A DNA stretch of 43,424 nucleotides from a virus. Location of the stretch: positions 1 through 43,424 of IMG/VR virus record IMGVR_UViG_3300017971_007895; one strand, 5' to 3'. The position numbers and the translations under genes are program-made. Shown here in pieces: positions 7,471 through 18,154 of this stretch; within the stretch, counting starts at the first letter, position 1, and the number at the start of each line of letters is the position of its first letter. The notes below the pieces were generated by a model, which did not search any database, had not been told where the DNA came from, and was given only the letters and a program-made list of their open reading frames with translations.

Positions 7471-7820
7471 AATCTCGTTCGTAGTTCGTTTGTGATGTTT
7501 CTCACCTGAACCGGCGCGCTCAGATCGCCGGCCAGCGCATCCGGCCATAGATGGCGCGGCACGTCAACTGCAATCGGCACACATCGGTCACCCCAGATTA
7601 CGCAGTTGTCCCCAAACGTGCCAGCATCCAGCGCACGGGCGTAGAGCACATCCCCGCTGGCAAACTGGACGCGCACCAGGTCGCCACAGCGCCAGCTCTC
7701 GTCTTGAATCGGCAGCGCAACCCAGGGCTCGATCGTCTCTGCATACACCCCACCACAGTAGAGCGGTTGGCCGATGTAAGGCCCGGCGTACCACGTAGCA
7801 ACGATCGTGATGGCTACCAC
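7455..7820 (-). CDS. Possible double-psi beta-barrel (RlpA/expansin-like) protein, lysis candidate
   Basis: This 121-residue protein shows features of a double-psi beta-barrel: an opening ATWYAGPYIGQ strand (8-18), LYCGG, CGDLVRVQFASG (about 45-56) and ARALDAGTFGDN (about 61-72). The Asp in LDAG aligns by eye with the catalytic Asp of RlpA-type lytic transglycosylases and the expansin barrel. Four cysteines could form two disulfides. The start is a GTG at 7818-7820 overlapping the stop of the gene upstream. It follows two small membrane proteins that look like holin components, and no classical endolysin was found in the window. It could therefore be the wall-degrading enzyme, but this is inference; without a search the fold is not proven. 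Confidence 0.5.
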   Translation of the reverse strand: MVAITIVATWYAGPYIGQPLYCGGVYAETIEPWVALPIQDESWRCGDLVRVQFASGDVLYARALDAGTFGDNCVIWGDRCVPIAVDVPRHLWPDALAGDLSAPVQVRNITNELRTRLLWAE

Positions 7821-8482
7821 TGCTCGATCAGGCCCTTCAAATCCTCAAGCGTATTGGCAATGCGGTGGACGTCAAACGCAATCGCGGCCAGATCCTCTCC
7901 AGGCTCCGGTCCAGGTCCACCCTCACCTTCGCCGTACAATGTCGCCCGGTCCCAAAAGGCGCTTTCGTCCTTGCCCGCATAGAGGTTTTCGATGTGACAG
8001 AAGAGCGTCACATACGGGGCCTCTGGCTCCACATTCTCGACAGAGAGCACGCGGAGATTCTCTAAGCCGCCTTCCCAGTAGCCTGGCGATCCTGGCGGCG
8101 CGGTCTCTCCCTGCCAAGAGCCCCAAACGATTTCATCGCTCTGAAAGTCCGTCCCACCGTAGGGATCGATGCCTACCCGGAGAGCAACGCCCGCACCTTC
8201 ACTCGTGAAGCAGGCCCGCACAACGAGGGTCAACAGATCGCCGATGTCAACGGGCACGCGCTGATACACGCCGGCCTGTATCTGGCTGAACGTGCCAAAG
8301 ACCTTTTGATACTGTTGATACCGCGTCCACTCCGGGCGGCGCTTGTCGCTGTTGTAATACGGCTGCCAGCCCTGGGCAACAGTGACCTCACCCACCGGAG
8401 CGCCGCCGTGCTCTGGATCGGGCCGCGCTGTGAAGGGCAGTGAAAAGTCAGGATTCAGGATCGGAAGCTCGGTCTTAGTCAT
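7814..8482 (-). CDS. Jelly-roll carbohydrate-binding-like protein
   Basis: This 222-residue protein resembles a CBM-type jelly roll. The motifs are an NPDFSLPF opening, VAQGWQPYYNSD, then RRPEWTRYQQ, a FGTFSQIQAGVYQRVPV strand pair, and a second-half series of beta strands. I know similar N-G-x-F-E ... V-A-x-G-W ... A-G-x-x-Q-x-V patterns from secreted proteins of Chloroflexota, hence the weak host guess. The C-terminus has a GPGPEPGED linker and a short helix. The ATG at 8480-8482 overlaps the stop of the small membrane protein gene (ATGA); an upstream GTG at 8494 is possible. Placed in the lysis region, it may bind cell-wall sugars alongside the 7455-7820 product. Confidence 0.55.
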   Translation of the reverse strand: MTKTELPILNPDFSLPFTARPDPEHGGAPVGEVTVAQGWQPYYNSDKRRPEWTRYQQYQKVFGTFSQIQAGVYQRVPVDIGDLLTLVVRACFTSEGAGVALRVGIDPYGGTDFQSDEIVWGSWQGETAPPGSPGYWEGGLENLRVLSVENVEPEAPYVTLFCHIENLYAGKDESAFWDRATLYGEGEGGPGPEPGEDLAAIAFDVHRIANTLEDLKGLIEQW

Positions 8483-8706
8483 AGCCCCAGCCACTTTCTG
8501 ATCGCGGCGATCGCAATCGGAATAAAGATGGCCCCCATCAGACTAGCAGCCACGCCGACAGCCCAGGTCACACGCTCAACATTGTCCAAGCGCTTGTCCT
8601 GCTCGCCTGCTGTCTTGCATATCTGGTCGATCTTGTCCCGGATGTACTTGAGATCGATGGCCAGTGTAGCGACTGTGATCCGGGTCTCTGTCGGCGTGTC
8701 CGGCAT
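8479..8706 (-). CDS. XhlA-like small membrane protein (holin accessory)
   Basis: This 75-residue protein has an N-terminal soluble helix with heptad character (DLKYIRDKIDQICKTAGEQ, about 18-36), then one membrane segment near residues 47-68 and a short basic end (IRKWLGL). This layout matches haemolysin XhlA-type phage proteins, which act with a holin in host lysis. The gene lies between a two-helix holin candidate and the cell-wall-type genes. The 4-base overlap with the next gene supports co-translation. The role is inferred from topology and position. Confidence 0.62.
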   Translation of the reverse strand: MPDTPTETRITVATLAIDLKYIRDKIDQICKTAGEQDKRLDNVERVTWAVGVAASLMGAIFIPIAIAAIRKWLGL

Positions 8707-14305: not shown

Positions 14306-14417
14306 TAGACAGATAGACAGAACTAGACAGTAATTCTCTATTGAACCCTACATGAGCGCGTAACTGGTTAATGCGGGAATTACCGTCTTTTTCTGTCTAG
14401 TGTCTACTATCTGTCTA
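14306..14417. repeat. Element A: 55-bp core flanked by TAGACAG repeats
   Basis: The core is 14331-14385. To its left are three direct copies of TAGACAG (14306-14312, 14314-14320, 14324-14330). To its right are three inverted copies (14393-14399, 14400-14406 with one change, 14411-14417). The core itself has dyad symmetry: TAATTC near one end against GAATTA near the other, and AACC against GGTT further in. The same core (46 of 55 bases) recurs at 14870-14924 with a different flanking repeat. It occupies most of the gap between the genes at 14233 and 14448. It may be a replication-origin-like array or an operator cluster. Confidence 0.85.
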
Positions 14418-14423
14418 GTTGTC

Positions 14424-14451
14424 ATGATATTTTGCTCTTCCGGGTAGTCAA
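14424..14451 (-). promoter_or_regulatory. Candidate promoter reading into element A
   Basis: On the minus strand TTGACT (14446-14451) and TATCAT (14424-14429) are 16 bases apart, close to a sigma-70 promoter. The -35 box overlaps the stop codon of the zinc-domain gene and lies in an 18-base sequence repeated at 17257-17274. Transcription would begin inside the TAGACAG repeats of element A and run into the gene at 14233. Confidence 0.55.
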
Positions 14452-14461
14452 CTTATCGGAA
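14444..14461. repeat. 18-bp trailer repeat, copy 1
   Basis: This sequence (GTAGTCAACTTATCGGAA on the plus strand) is identical to 17257-17274. Here it covers the end of the zinc-domain gene and the -35 box of the promoter at 14424-14451. It contains CTTATCGG, which also occurs twice in the right flank of element B (14928-14935 and 14946-14953). Confidence 0.85.
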
Positions 14462-14684
14462 CCCGCCCTGTGCCATTGCACTCATTGCAGCGCCCTGGAT
14501 TATCTGCACAAAAGTCGCACAGTCCAGAGTCATCGCATTCTGAACAGCCATCGCCCTCACAGTTCTGACAGTCACCCGTGCCATCGCACTCGGGGCACTC
14601 TCCTGTGCCGTCGCAGTTTGTGCATACCGCCATCGGAGCTGGACCGAGTCCAGTGTCATCAAACAATATCACGTTGCGTCCCAT
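14448..14684 (-). CDS. Stand-alone DnaJ-type cysteine-rich zinc domain
   Basis: This 78-residue protein consists almost wholly of CxxCxGxG-like repeats as in the zinc-binding region of DnaJ/Hsp40: CTNCDGTG, CPECDGTG, CQNCEGDG, then CSECDDSG, CDFC and CNECNGTG (about 22-74). No J domain or peptide-binding barrel is attached. In DnaJ this region binds two zinc ions and helps hold unfolded protein. A separate J-domain protein lies at 18956-19816 in the same early operon, so the two may act together. A GGAGGT site precedes the ATG inside a 28-base leader that is almost repeated before the PP-loop gene. Confidence 0.72.
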   Translation of the reverse strand: MGRNVILFDDTGLGPAPMAVCTNCDGTGECPECDGTGDCQNCEGDGCSECDDSGLCDFCADNPGRCNECNGTGRVPIS

Positions 14685-14691
14685 TTTGTTT

Positions 14692-14719
14692 ACCTCCGCG
14701 TATCCACAATATCAGAGTC
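14692..14719 (-). repeat. 28-bp leader repeat, copy 1 (before the zinc-domain gene)
   Basis: This 28-base sequence just before the 14684 start matches 18058-18085 (before the PP-loop gene) at 24 of 28 positions. It includes TGTGGATACG and the GGAGGT ribosome binding site. A shared leader implies duplication or common translational control. Confidence 0.75.
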
Positions 14720-14724
14720 AGGGT

Positions 14725-14841
14725 TCATGCCAATTTCACCCCATACGCTCCACGGACCTGCCGCCCAAGACCATGATCATACTTGCGTTGTCCAGCATCG
14801 ATCCCTTTCCGCTTCAGCTCCATACTGAGCGATCTCTTGTG
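14725..14841 (-). pseudogene. Remnant copy of the primase C-terminus
   Basis: Read on the minus strand this stretch encodes 38 codons that closely match the last 36 residues of the primase at 14958-17225: both have HKRSL, then MELKRKG, then DAGQ, and end in G-x-K-L. A TAG codon stands directly before the first shared codon, so it is not expressed as part of a longer protein. Element B separates it from the true primase end. It must be a leftover from a duplication or recombination at this site. Confidence 0.85.
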
Positions 14842-14845
14842 CTAA

Positions 14846-14957
14846 GGTACCGGTACCAGAAGGTACCACTAATTCTCCATTAAACCCTACATGAACGCCA
14901 AACTGGTTAAAGTAGAAATTACCGGTACTTATCGGTACCGGTACCCTTATCGGTACC
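14846..14957. repeat. Element B: 55-bp core flanked by GGTACC repeats
   Basis: The core is 14870-14924. GGTACC copies lie to its left (14846-14851, 14852-14857, 14862-14867) and right (14934-14939, 14940-14945, 14952-14957, plus the variant GGTACT at 14924-14929). CTTATCGG occurs twice among the right copies. The element fills the space between the primase stop codon and its duplicated C-terminus. Core differences from element A fall mostly at first and second codon positions of the one open frame, so conservation is of DNA or RNA rather than protein. Confidence 0.85.
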
Positions 14958-17225
14958 CTAAAGCAATTTAATTCCAAAGCAACCTCGATGTTTGACGCCA
15001 CCTACCTTGCGCTGCTGTCCGGCGTCCAACCCCTTGCGTTTCAATTCCATTGTGAGACTGCGCTTGTGCTTTGGCGTGACGCCGTTCTCCTTACACCACT
15101 CCTGGTAGGAGAGGTAAAGCGCAGAGTTGGGCACAAAGTGGCTGCCAGTTTGCACAATCTCCACACACTCTTCCAACCACTGGCCTACATAGTCCAGCTC
15201 GAGGCGCTGTGCTTGTGTGGTCTCTTCGATGCTCTTGGGCACGCGCAACCCGGTGCCCTCCTGGTTGTACCATCGGATCGCGCCTTTCACCGCCCAGGCC
15301 AGGACCGCTTGCAGGCTCTCCCGCTGCTTGAGCTGCGCTTTCAGCGTCTTATCCTCTCGCCCTGCATAGCTGTTCGGAAATTGGATCACTTTGAGCCTGT
15401 ACCAAATGGCGTCGTCATCCACGTCGGCATTCACCGGATAGTTGCTGCTCAGCCAGACTTTGAATTGCGGCCGATAAGTGAAGTGGTCTTTGCGCTTGAA
15501 TGCGGCGCGAATCTCATTGCCACCCGTGATGGCTTTCACGCGCGCTGTGTTCAGACTCGTGTACTTGCTAGATTCGCTGGCAGCCACAAAGCGGCAAGGC
15601 TTCAAGCCTGCCAAGTCGAAGTTTTGCGAGTCGTGGCTGCGATCCATCGTGAAGGAAGAGAAATCCACCTCGGTGCCCATCGGTTCTTTGCCGAGCATGT
15701 GCAGGATGGTCTCAGTGAAAGAGCCCTTGCCGCTCCGGGTTGGCCCGTAGAGGTAGAACAGGCATTCTTCGGACGTATGGCCCGTGAGTGTGTACCCTAT
15801 GGCCATCTGTAGAAAATCCACGAGCTGAGGATCCCCGCCGACCCACTCAAGAATCAGGGTCCTCCACTTTGAGTGATCCGCTTCTGGATCGTATTCGATC
15901 GGTAGGCAATACGTGAAGCGCTGGCCAGGAAGATGGTCTATGAGGTCGCCTGTTCTCAGGTTCAAGACGCCGTTCTTGCAGTTCAATAAGTCGGGGAAAC
16001 TGTCAAAGTCGGCAGCACGGGCCGGGACCAAGCTCTCATAGAGGTACTTGCAGTTGCGCACGTTGGTGGCGGTAGCACGGGTTACTTTGACGATGGCCTC
16101 TCGATCGGCTTTCACTGCCTCCAAGCGCCGGCGCTGCAGGACGTCGACCACTGCACGGTCCAGGCGGCTCTCCGCCAGTTCCCGCGCCCAATGCGTTTTG
16201 CCGTGGTGCATCCACCCAAACGCCTCGACGTGCAGGAACTGACCTGGGTAGAGCGCATCGACACAGCGGGCGTTTCCCTCATCGCTGGCATCGGCGCGGA
16301 GCAGGATGCTCTCTGTGCGCGGTGTGGGCGGCTCGATGGCCGGCACATTGCCAGGTGGGTAACGCCCAACGCTCTCAGCGATCGCCTCGACCTCTGACGA
16401 TTCTAGTGGCGGCTCGCAATGTCTCTGGTTGAATGCCTCCAGACTGGGCAGCATCGTGGCTGCATCCATCCCCCGCCGGCGCATAGAGCCCGCTAGGCTG
16501 GCCAGGCGCACATTGCGCTCGCCCTGGGTGATGTGCTCGGGCAGTTCGTTTCCGTTTTGCCCTGGCTGCTCTGCACTCTCCCAGGGGTCAGCTGCTTTGT
16601 GGTGCCCATTCATCTTGAGCAGGGCGGCCAACTCGGTTGGCAACATACCCGGCGCCTGGTCCATCGGATGGCTGCTCGCTTCCCAAGTGTAAGAGCCTTT
16701 TTCAGTTCGGCTTGGGGCTACGACGATGTATCCCCCTTCGCCGCGCGTGTCGATGCCCGGAGCGATCTTGCTGGCAGTGCTCTTGATGCCGTCGTCTGTG
16801 CGCCAGATTTTGTGAATGCCGCCCGAGGGCGTCTGCTGTTCAAGAGCCTGGCTATCGTCGATGCCGAGATTGTCCCACTCTCCTGGCCCATCCGCGCCGT
16901 TTTTCACGTCGAGGTCGACCACAGCCAGCTTTGAGCGCCCGCAATCTACCCCGATGTTGGCCAGTGGGTGTTTCTGCCACCAGGCGCGAATGGTGCCCGG
17001 ATCGCGTGTACTGTCCTTGAAACCGTTCTTGGTCAGTGGGCGCTTTTCCCCCGGCACACAGGGGAACACGTACCAACCTAGCTTAGACAGTTGCAGCGCG
17101 CTCTCACATAAGAGCATTTGCCAGCCCTGTTCGGGTGTCATCTTTGCGATCTCATCATCCGTATGGCCAAGCTCCCCCAGCTGGCGTTTTGTCTCATTGG
17201 TCAGAAAGAGCGGGATAGATGGCAC
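14958..17225 (-). CDS. Primase-polymerase / SF3 helicase replication protein
   Basis: This 755-residue protein combines two activities. Residues about 40-200 form an archaeo-eukaryotic-type primase-polymerase domain: LSKLGWYVFPCVPGEKRP, catalytic acids in VVDLDVKNG (102-110), SGGIHKIW (134-141) and a GEGGYIVVAPS strand (162-172). GERNVRLASLAGSMRRRGM (about 235-253) fits the primase C-terminal PriCT region. Residues about 400-650 are a D5-like superfamily-3 helicase with Walker A GPTRSGKGS (494-502) and a later KVWLSSNYP motif. It would prime and unwind DNA at the phage origin. No replicative DNA polymerase is present in the window, so the host enzyme is probably used. Its C-terminus is duplicated downstream, and the adjacent element B is a candidate origin. 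Confidence 0.92.
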   Translation of the reverse strand: MPSIPLFLTNETKRQLGELGHTDDEIAKMTPEQGWQMLLCESALQLSKLGWYVFPCVPGEKRPLTKNGFKDSTRDPGTIRAWWQKHPLANIGVDCGRSKLAVVDLDVKNGADGPGEWDNLGIDDSQALEQQTPSGGIHKIWRTDDGIKSTASKIAPGIDTRGEGGYIVVAPSRTEKGSYTWEASSHPMDQAPGMLPTELAALLKMNGHHKAADPWESAEQPGQNGNELPEHITQGERNVRLASLAGSMRRRGMDAATMLPSLEAFNQRHCEPPLESSEVEAIAESVGRYPPGNVPAIEPPTPRTESILLRADASDEGNARCVDALYPGQFLHVEAFGWMHHGKTHWARELAESRLDRAVVDVLQRRRLEAVKADREAIVKVTRATATNVRNCKYLYESLVPARAADFDSFPDLLNCKNGVLNLRTGDLIDHLPGQRFTYCLPIEYDPEADHSKWRTLILEWVGGDPQLVDFLQMAIGYTLTGHTSEECLFYLYGPTRSGKGSFTETILHMLGKEPMGTEVDFSSFTMDRSHDSQNFDLAGLKPCRFVAASESSKYTSLNTARVKAITGGNEIRAAFKRKDHFTYRPQFKVWLSSNYPVNADVDDDAIWYRLKVIQFPNSYAGREDKTLKAQLKQRESLQAVLAWAVKGAIRWYNQEGTGLRVPKSIEETTQAQRLELDYVGQWLEECVEIVQTGSHFVPNSALYLSYQEWCKENGVTPKHKRSLTMELKRKGLDAGQQRKVGGVKHRGCFGIKLL

Positions 17226-17256: not shown

Positions 17257-17274
17257 GTAGTCAACTTATCGGAA
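17257..17274. repeat. 18-bp trailer repeat, copy 2
   Basis: This is an exact copy of the 18 bases at 14444-14461. It lies between the stop of the PP-loop gene and the start of the primase gene. It again offers TTGACT on the minus strand, but no good -10 box stands at the proper distance, so promoter function is less clear here. Confidence 0.8.
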
Positions 17275-18057: not shown

Positions 18058-18085
18058 ACCTCCTCGTATCCACATTCTCAGAGCC
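18058..18085 (-). repeat. 28-bp leader repeat, copy 2 (before the PP-loop gene)
   Basis: This sequence matches 14692-14719 at 24 of 28 positions and holds the GGAGGT site of the PP-loop gene. Its upstream end meets the 3' end of the tRNA-Thr gene (18082), so the leader begins where the tRNA stops. Confidence 0.75.
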
Positions 18086-18154
18086 AGCGCCCGGAGTCGA
18101 ACCGGGAACCGGGCCATTACAAATGGCCTGCGCTGCCTGTTGCGCTACGCTGGC
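18082..18154 (-). tRNA. tRNA-Thr (anticodon UGU)
   Basis: The minus strand folds into a full cloverleaf of 73 bases. The acceptor GCCAGCG pairs with CGCTGGC over 7 bp. The D-arm is GCGC/GCGC with GG in the loop. The anticodon stem GGCCA/TGGCC has loop TTTGTAA (anticodon TGT). The T-arm is CCCGG/CCGGG with loop TTCGACT, and the discriminator base is T. CCA is not encoded. It reads ACA codons and lies between the VWA gene and the PP-loop gene. Confidence 0.93.

Follow-up and report, generated by a model that had tools for sequence, protein, structure and literature searches.

The locus examined here raised the question of why two short elements in one phage genome share a central core and yet are framed by unlike repeats. 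The DNA analysed (the window) was IMG/VR virus record IMGVR_UViG_3300017971_007895, positions 1 to 43,424, a total of 43,424 bases. Terminase, portal, tape measure, RecT, DnaJ, and tyrosine integrase genes were identified in it using Pfam and PHROG. Nearly all genes of the window lie on one strand, and the minus strand is the coding strand of the genes around the two elements, A and B. Read along the minus strand, the order is the primase gene with its current tail (tail 1), element B, a remnant of another tail (tail 2), gene X, and element A (Table 1). Both elements are most likely replication origins, a reading based on features taken from sequence: their anatomy and position, their recurrence after primase genes, the predicted fold of the tail, the tail remnant, and the joint change of tail and iterons in relatives. 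It is considered probable that both are origins of a single Prim-Pol/D5 initiator, B belonging to the current tail and an older A to the remnant tail, the one having been exchanged for the other by recombination.

Table 1. Features between element A and the initiator gene, in window positions
Feature	Position	Strand	Detail or basis
Element A, second putative origin, with the other iteron	14306..14419	-	inverted repeats, folding, core match to L018/L020 centres
A iteron array 1	14306..14330	.	TAGACAG at 14306, 14314, 14324
Core of origin A (putative)	14331..14385	.	56% AT
A iteron array 2	14386..14419	.	inverted TAGACAG, exact at 14393-14399 and 14411-14417, plus one-mismatch copies
Gene X, small Cys-rich ORF, 78 aa	14448..14684	-	between tail remnant and element A
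Remnant of alternative initiator C-terminus, HKRSLSMELKRKGIDAGQRKYDHGLGRQVRGAYGVKLA followed by a stop	14725..14841	-	59% identical to current tail over 37 residues
Element B, putative active origin	14846..14957	-	inverted GGTACC arrays round core; adjoins primase stop codon (14958-14960)
B iteron array 1	14846..14869	.	GGTACC at 14846, 14852, 14862
Core of origin B (putative)	14870..14924	.	64% AT; 46/55 identical to core A
B iteron array 2	14925..14957	.	GGTACC at 14934, 14940, 14952; CCGATAAG units between
Prim-Pol / PriCT / D5 (SF3) helicase initiator, 755 aa	14958..17225	-	PF09250, PF08708, PF08706, PF19263, PF03288; PHROG DNA primase
Current C-terminal winged-helix tail (predicted), about residues 690-755	14961..15158	-	AlphaFold2 and fold match

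The two paralogous 55-bp cores described in an earlier note on this DNA were borne out at the stated 46 of 55 positions (blastn E = 2e-11 within the window); they have the same orientation and lie 539 bp apart. A 28-base core pattern had two matches in the window, one in each core, with 0 expected. When the inverted repeats of the 43-kb window are ranked by length, the top three all belong to A and B, with the cores as their centres. Three TAGACAG copies and three inverted copies had been claimed for the flanks of A, and three exact copies were found on one side, but the other side holds two exact copies plus one-mismatch copies. Similarly, three and four copies of GGTACC had been claimed for B; three are exact on each side, but the right side's fourth copy carries one mismatch. 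Element B was correctly said to abut the primase/helicase gene: it spans 112 nt, beginning at the TAG stop codon. The further claim that architecture and core are kept while the repeat unit is replaced also held, and the pattern recurs in relatives. No similarity was detected between the arms of A and those of B (best local score 5.0; shuffled mean 6.0). Inspection of the sequence shows a 10-bp spacing between the innermost two repeats of each side in A and B alike, and the innermost repeats sit at or beside TAATT at both core ends of each element.

GC skew showed no turn at A or B and is uninformative here, given that almost every gene is on the same strand, and RNA folding compared with shuffled sequences gave z of about -5 for A and a weaker z of about -2.5 to -3.7 for B. 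Nothing was recovered by a DNA similarity search of a phage collection or by scanning viral and genome contigs for the exact core pattern, and the core was not matched in terminase relatives, which were short contigs. At the sensitivity of DNA similarity and exact-pattern searches, the core sequence is thus limited to this phage.

The domains assigned to the initiator by Pfam were Prim-Pol, PriCT, D5_N, DUF5906, and Pox_D5. The archaeo-eukaryotic Prim-Pol domain was detected with PF09250 (E 2.6e-34) and the SF3/D5 helicase domain with PF08706 and PF19263, together with PDB sequence matches to the primase-helicases C962R and 7ola. The C-terminal tail was modelled with AlphaFold2 (mean pLDDT 87.5), and its best PDB fold match in Foldseek was the RFX DNA-binding domain 1dp7 (probability 1.00, TMt 0.71, E only 2.3e-3). 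Pfam gave Pox_D5 for the tail at E 1e-7 and RFX_DNA_binding below threshold at E 0.0019. The tail is predicted from these matches to be an RFX-type winged-helix DNA-binding domain, a group to which the P4 alpha origin-binding domain and the tail of another Prim-Pol/SF3 protein have also been assigned (PMC10516667).

A primase C-terminus remnant, missed by the earlier note, lies between the two elements. It matches the current tail at E of about 1e-11, and the copy is visible at the DNA level (14789-14843 against 15016-15070, 71%). The homology starts at the edge of B, and the remnant then ends in a stop codon. This remnant offers a reason for the differing repeats: with the relic of a second tail beside B, the genome seems to bear traces of the two states of an exchange in which the tail and the origin repeats were replaced together. 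Pairing of the remnant-type tail with A is suggested by adjacency alone, though gene X intervenes.

Gene X had no family match in a Pfam scan. Its leader (14692-14721) is 87% identical to that of a PAPS-reductase-like gene (18058-18087), whose leader overlaps the 3' end of a tRNA-Thr gene, and an identical 17-nt stretch is present at the 3' ends of the two genes (17257-17273 in the PAPS-reductase-like gene and 14444-14460 in gene X). This likeness of leaders and trailers suggests that small gene cassettes have been exchanged between shared flanks. The motif CCGATAAG occurs six times in the window against 0.65 expected, at 14452, 14928, 14946, 17265, and two other positions; two copies are within the B arm and two within the 17-nt trailers.

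Relatives of the primase were collected from viral contigs. A single-sequence search found one distant relative, and an alignment-based profile search then drew 80 loci, the primases of which are 24-49% identical to that of the window. Inverted tandem repeats round a centre of ~50 nt were found right after the primase stop in close and distant relatives alike. A strong inverted repeat, defined as a score of 14 or more where shuffles average about 8, followed the primase stop in 27 of 45 independent loci, compared with 2 of the 197 stop codons of other ORFs at those loci (p = 1e-21); the remaining 18 of the 45 had no strong repeat there. In 24 loci for which the geometry was recorded, most elements begin 3-56 nt past the primase stop and, with one exception, span 85-123 nt, and the arm repeats show a 9-bp period (0.49 against about 0.25). 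The iteron sequence varies from lineage to lineage. Core A could be aligned with the origin centres of L018 (3/2000 shuffles), which reads AATTCCCG..TTAACC in the alignment, and L020 (1/2000), while core B was below significance against the relatives' centres, and conservation of the core sequence among relatives is lost at larger distance. Homologous phages with the genes but without the core had been named earlier as evidence against an element of this kind; such homologues do occur at larger distance as far as the core sequence is concerned, but the architecture persists there. The origin-like reading put forward earlier is well supported by these relatives and by what has been published on origins of this protein class, and no finding pointed to the recombination element or plain operator array suggested alongside it.

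Many relatives carry, between the inverted iterons and in most cases exactly midway, a perfectly alternating purine-pyrimidine tract of 15-30 nt (L028, L016, L045, L047, L055, L067, L077, L080, L084, L085, L087, L090, L096, L036, and L033). The alternation is kept and the sequence is not (an example is CACGCGCGTGCG), and it was matched by at most 1 in 200 composition shuffles. These centres are Z-DNA-prone rather than AT-rich. The tract was looked for in the cores of the window and was absent. In L018, the Prim-Pol domain (7475-8380; PF09250 E 3.5e-20) is not fused to the D5 helicase but has its own gene, which lies downstream of the helicase gene and directly follows the origin.

Within this set of relatives, the tail and the iterons co-vary while the rest of the initiator stays conserved. 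Spearman correlations over all 60 sequences were inflated by near-duplicates, and the analysis was redone on 28 representatives. Iteron similarity tracked the tail given the helicase (partial r 0.205, 3/2000 Mantel permutations), compared with only 0.055 for the helicase given the tail; the tail correlation is modest and disappears in one identity bin (helicase 0.78-0.85). Individual pairs display the same behaviour. Between L071 or L091 and L096, the helicase is 77-100% identical per 25-residue block and falls to 29-38% from residue 675, the iterons are unlike, and the downstream gene is conserved. L090 and L095 have helicases that are 99% identical, with differences past residue 475 confined to the tail, where they lie in the wing and at the beginning of a helix; their iterons differ, and the core and flanks are kept. 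L027 and L028 are 81-100% identical per block to about residue 670 and 46-67% in the tail, and the origin core is kept with changed iterons. No sibling genome covering the A/B region was found for the window itself.

An extra tail beside an origin was found in at least two cases, the window and L027. The latter has a free 93-aa ORF (8296-8577) that is an extra initiator tail domain (E = 7e-14), and its sibling L028 does not have this ORF after its origin. The free tail may be a relic, or a protein that binds origins in trans. From the window remnant and this ORF, it might be supposed that the phage family stores spare tails and spare origins for recombinational replicon switching, or that a free tail works in trans, for instance by binding to and occupying a competing relative's origin; the proposal is regarded as quite unlikely, but if it were true, spare tails and origins would form a switchable cassette of replication specificity.

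Tested systems provided the basis for comparison. In the plasmid pRN1, deletion and relocation experiments traced the origin to a stem-loop of 100 nt lying just 3' of a Prim-Pol/SF3/winged-helix gene, and an origin of the same type was proposed by the authors for phage BIP-1 (PMC4234260). The window has a Prim-Pol, an SF3/D5 helicase, and a predicted winged-helix tail in the same domain order, with an inverted repeat of ~100 nt, the same size, directly 3' of the gene. It differs from pRN1, for which no iterons were reported in the stem-loop, in that its arms are tandem iterons, and it also contains two putative origins with unlike iterons and a tail remnant. Iterons directly downstream of the gene are recognised by the C-terminal domain of SaPI Rep, and the C-terminal domain of the D5-type helicase Cch2 of SCCmec binds its own repeats (PMC7581432). 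Two iteron sets round an AT-rich region are a constant feature of PICI origins (PMC6092414). The window shares with SaPI and PICI origins the two iteron sets round a centre immediately 3' of the rep gene (PMC6092414, PMC7581432), but its centre is only moderately AT-rich (56-64% against 43% for the window), and with terminase, portal, and tape measure genes it is a phage genome rather than a helper-dependent satellite. PLE satellites exchange the RepA DNA-binding domain together with the origin, an origin-directed nuclease being the likely selective force (PMC8263062). Relatives of the window likewise swap the initiator DNA-binding domain together with the origin and keep the rest of the initiator. 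The PLE initiator, however, is a RepA_N protein rather than a Prim-Pol/D5 protein, and PLE swaps were inferred between genomes, whereas the window keeps both putative origins and a piece of the other tail side by side. A PLE-like selective pressure is possible in this phage, although the window contains no evidence for it.

Three other explanations were weighed against an exchange of tail and origin. The first, that A and B are a duplicated origin, both used by the present initiator with drifted iterons and unchanged specificity, seems unlikely. Tandem duplicate origins are indeed known downstream of the primase in L019, L032 (about four origin-like elements), and L047 (two), but those duplicates keep much the same iterons, whereas A and B have cores that are 84% identical but arms without any similarity, and the tail remnant would be left unexplained. 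The second, that the elements are operator arrays or structured RNAs or terminators controlling downstream genes, is judged very unlikely. A sigma-70-like promoter (TTGACT-16-TATCAT, 14424-14451, minus strand) just upstream of A reads through A toward the next gene, a terminator-like hairpin is present within B on the transcribed strand, and A folds well as RNA; against this, Rfam returned no match, a terminator needs no inverted tandem iterons, the post-primase position recurs in distant phages, the repeats co-vary with the initiator tail, and genetic work demonstrated the origin function of the equivalent pRN1 element (PMC4234260). A and B may still have a secondary regulatory role. The third, non-autonomous mobile or recombination elements (MITE-like, or cassette sites) duplicated in this phage, is extremely improbable: directly oriented cores 539 bp apart do flank a small gene, but only two copies exist in the phage and none were found in other contigs by pattern scan, the ends differ and the centre is kept, which is the opposite of the terminal repeats that a transposase needs, and the sole recombinase gene among the scanned ORFs is a distant integrase (26.8-27.8 kb). 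MITE, terminator, RNA motif, and attachment-site readings were rejected as the main explanation.

Under the preferred reading of two origins and an exchanged tail, a scheme was drawn by analogy with the tested systems. A and B would be double-stranded origins in which short inverted iterons flank a shared core. The winged-helix tail would bind the iterons on both sides, one helicase ring would be loaded per side, the core between them would be opened, and the N-terminal Prim-Pol would then prime. B may be paired with the current tail, and A is probably the older origin. A recombination event within the primase gene, at its 3' end, would have brought in tail 1 and the matching origin B, leaving behind the fragment of the old tail and the old origin A, and the core would have stayed unchanged, presumably because it is read by the unchanged parts of the machine.

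Origins of this kind are already known; what is new is that one genome appears to hold both sides of a change in initiator/origin specificity, and the recurrence in this phage family of a kept core with changed iterons and tail, as read from the relatives' sequences, is also new. Origins of metagenomic phages are seldom identified, and candidate origins in many uncultivated phages can be proposed with the rule that inverted iterons lie directly 3' of the Prim-Pol/D5 gene. With traces of both states apparently in one genome, a joint change of initiator and origin without loss of replication becomes directly testable, and the winged-helix tails and iterons of the relatives, as natural pairs, could be used to derive a recognition code.
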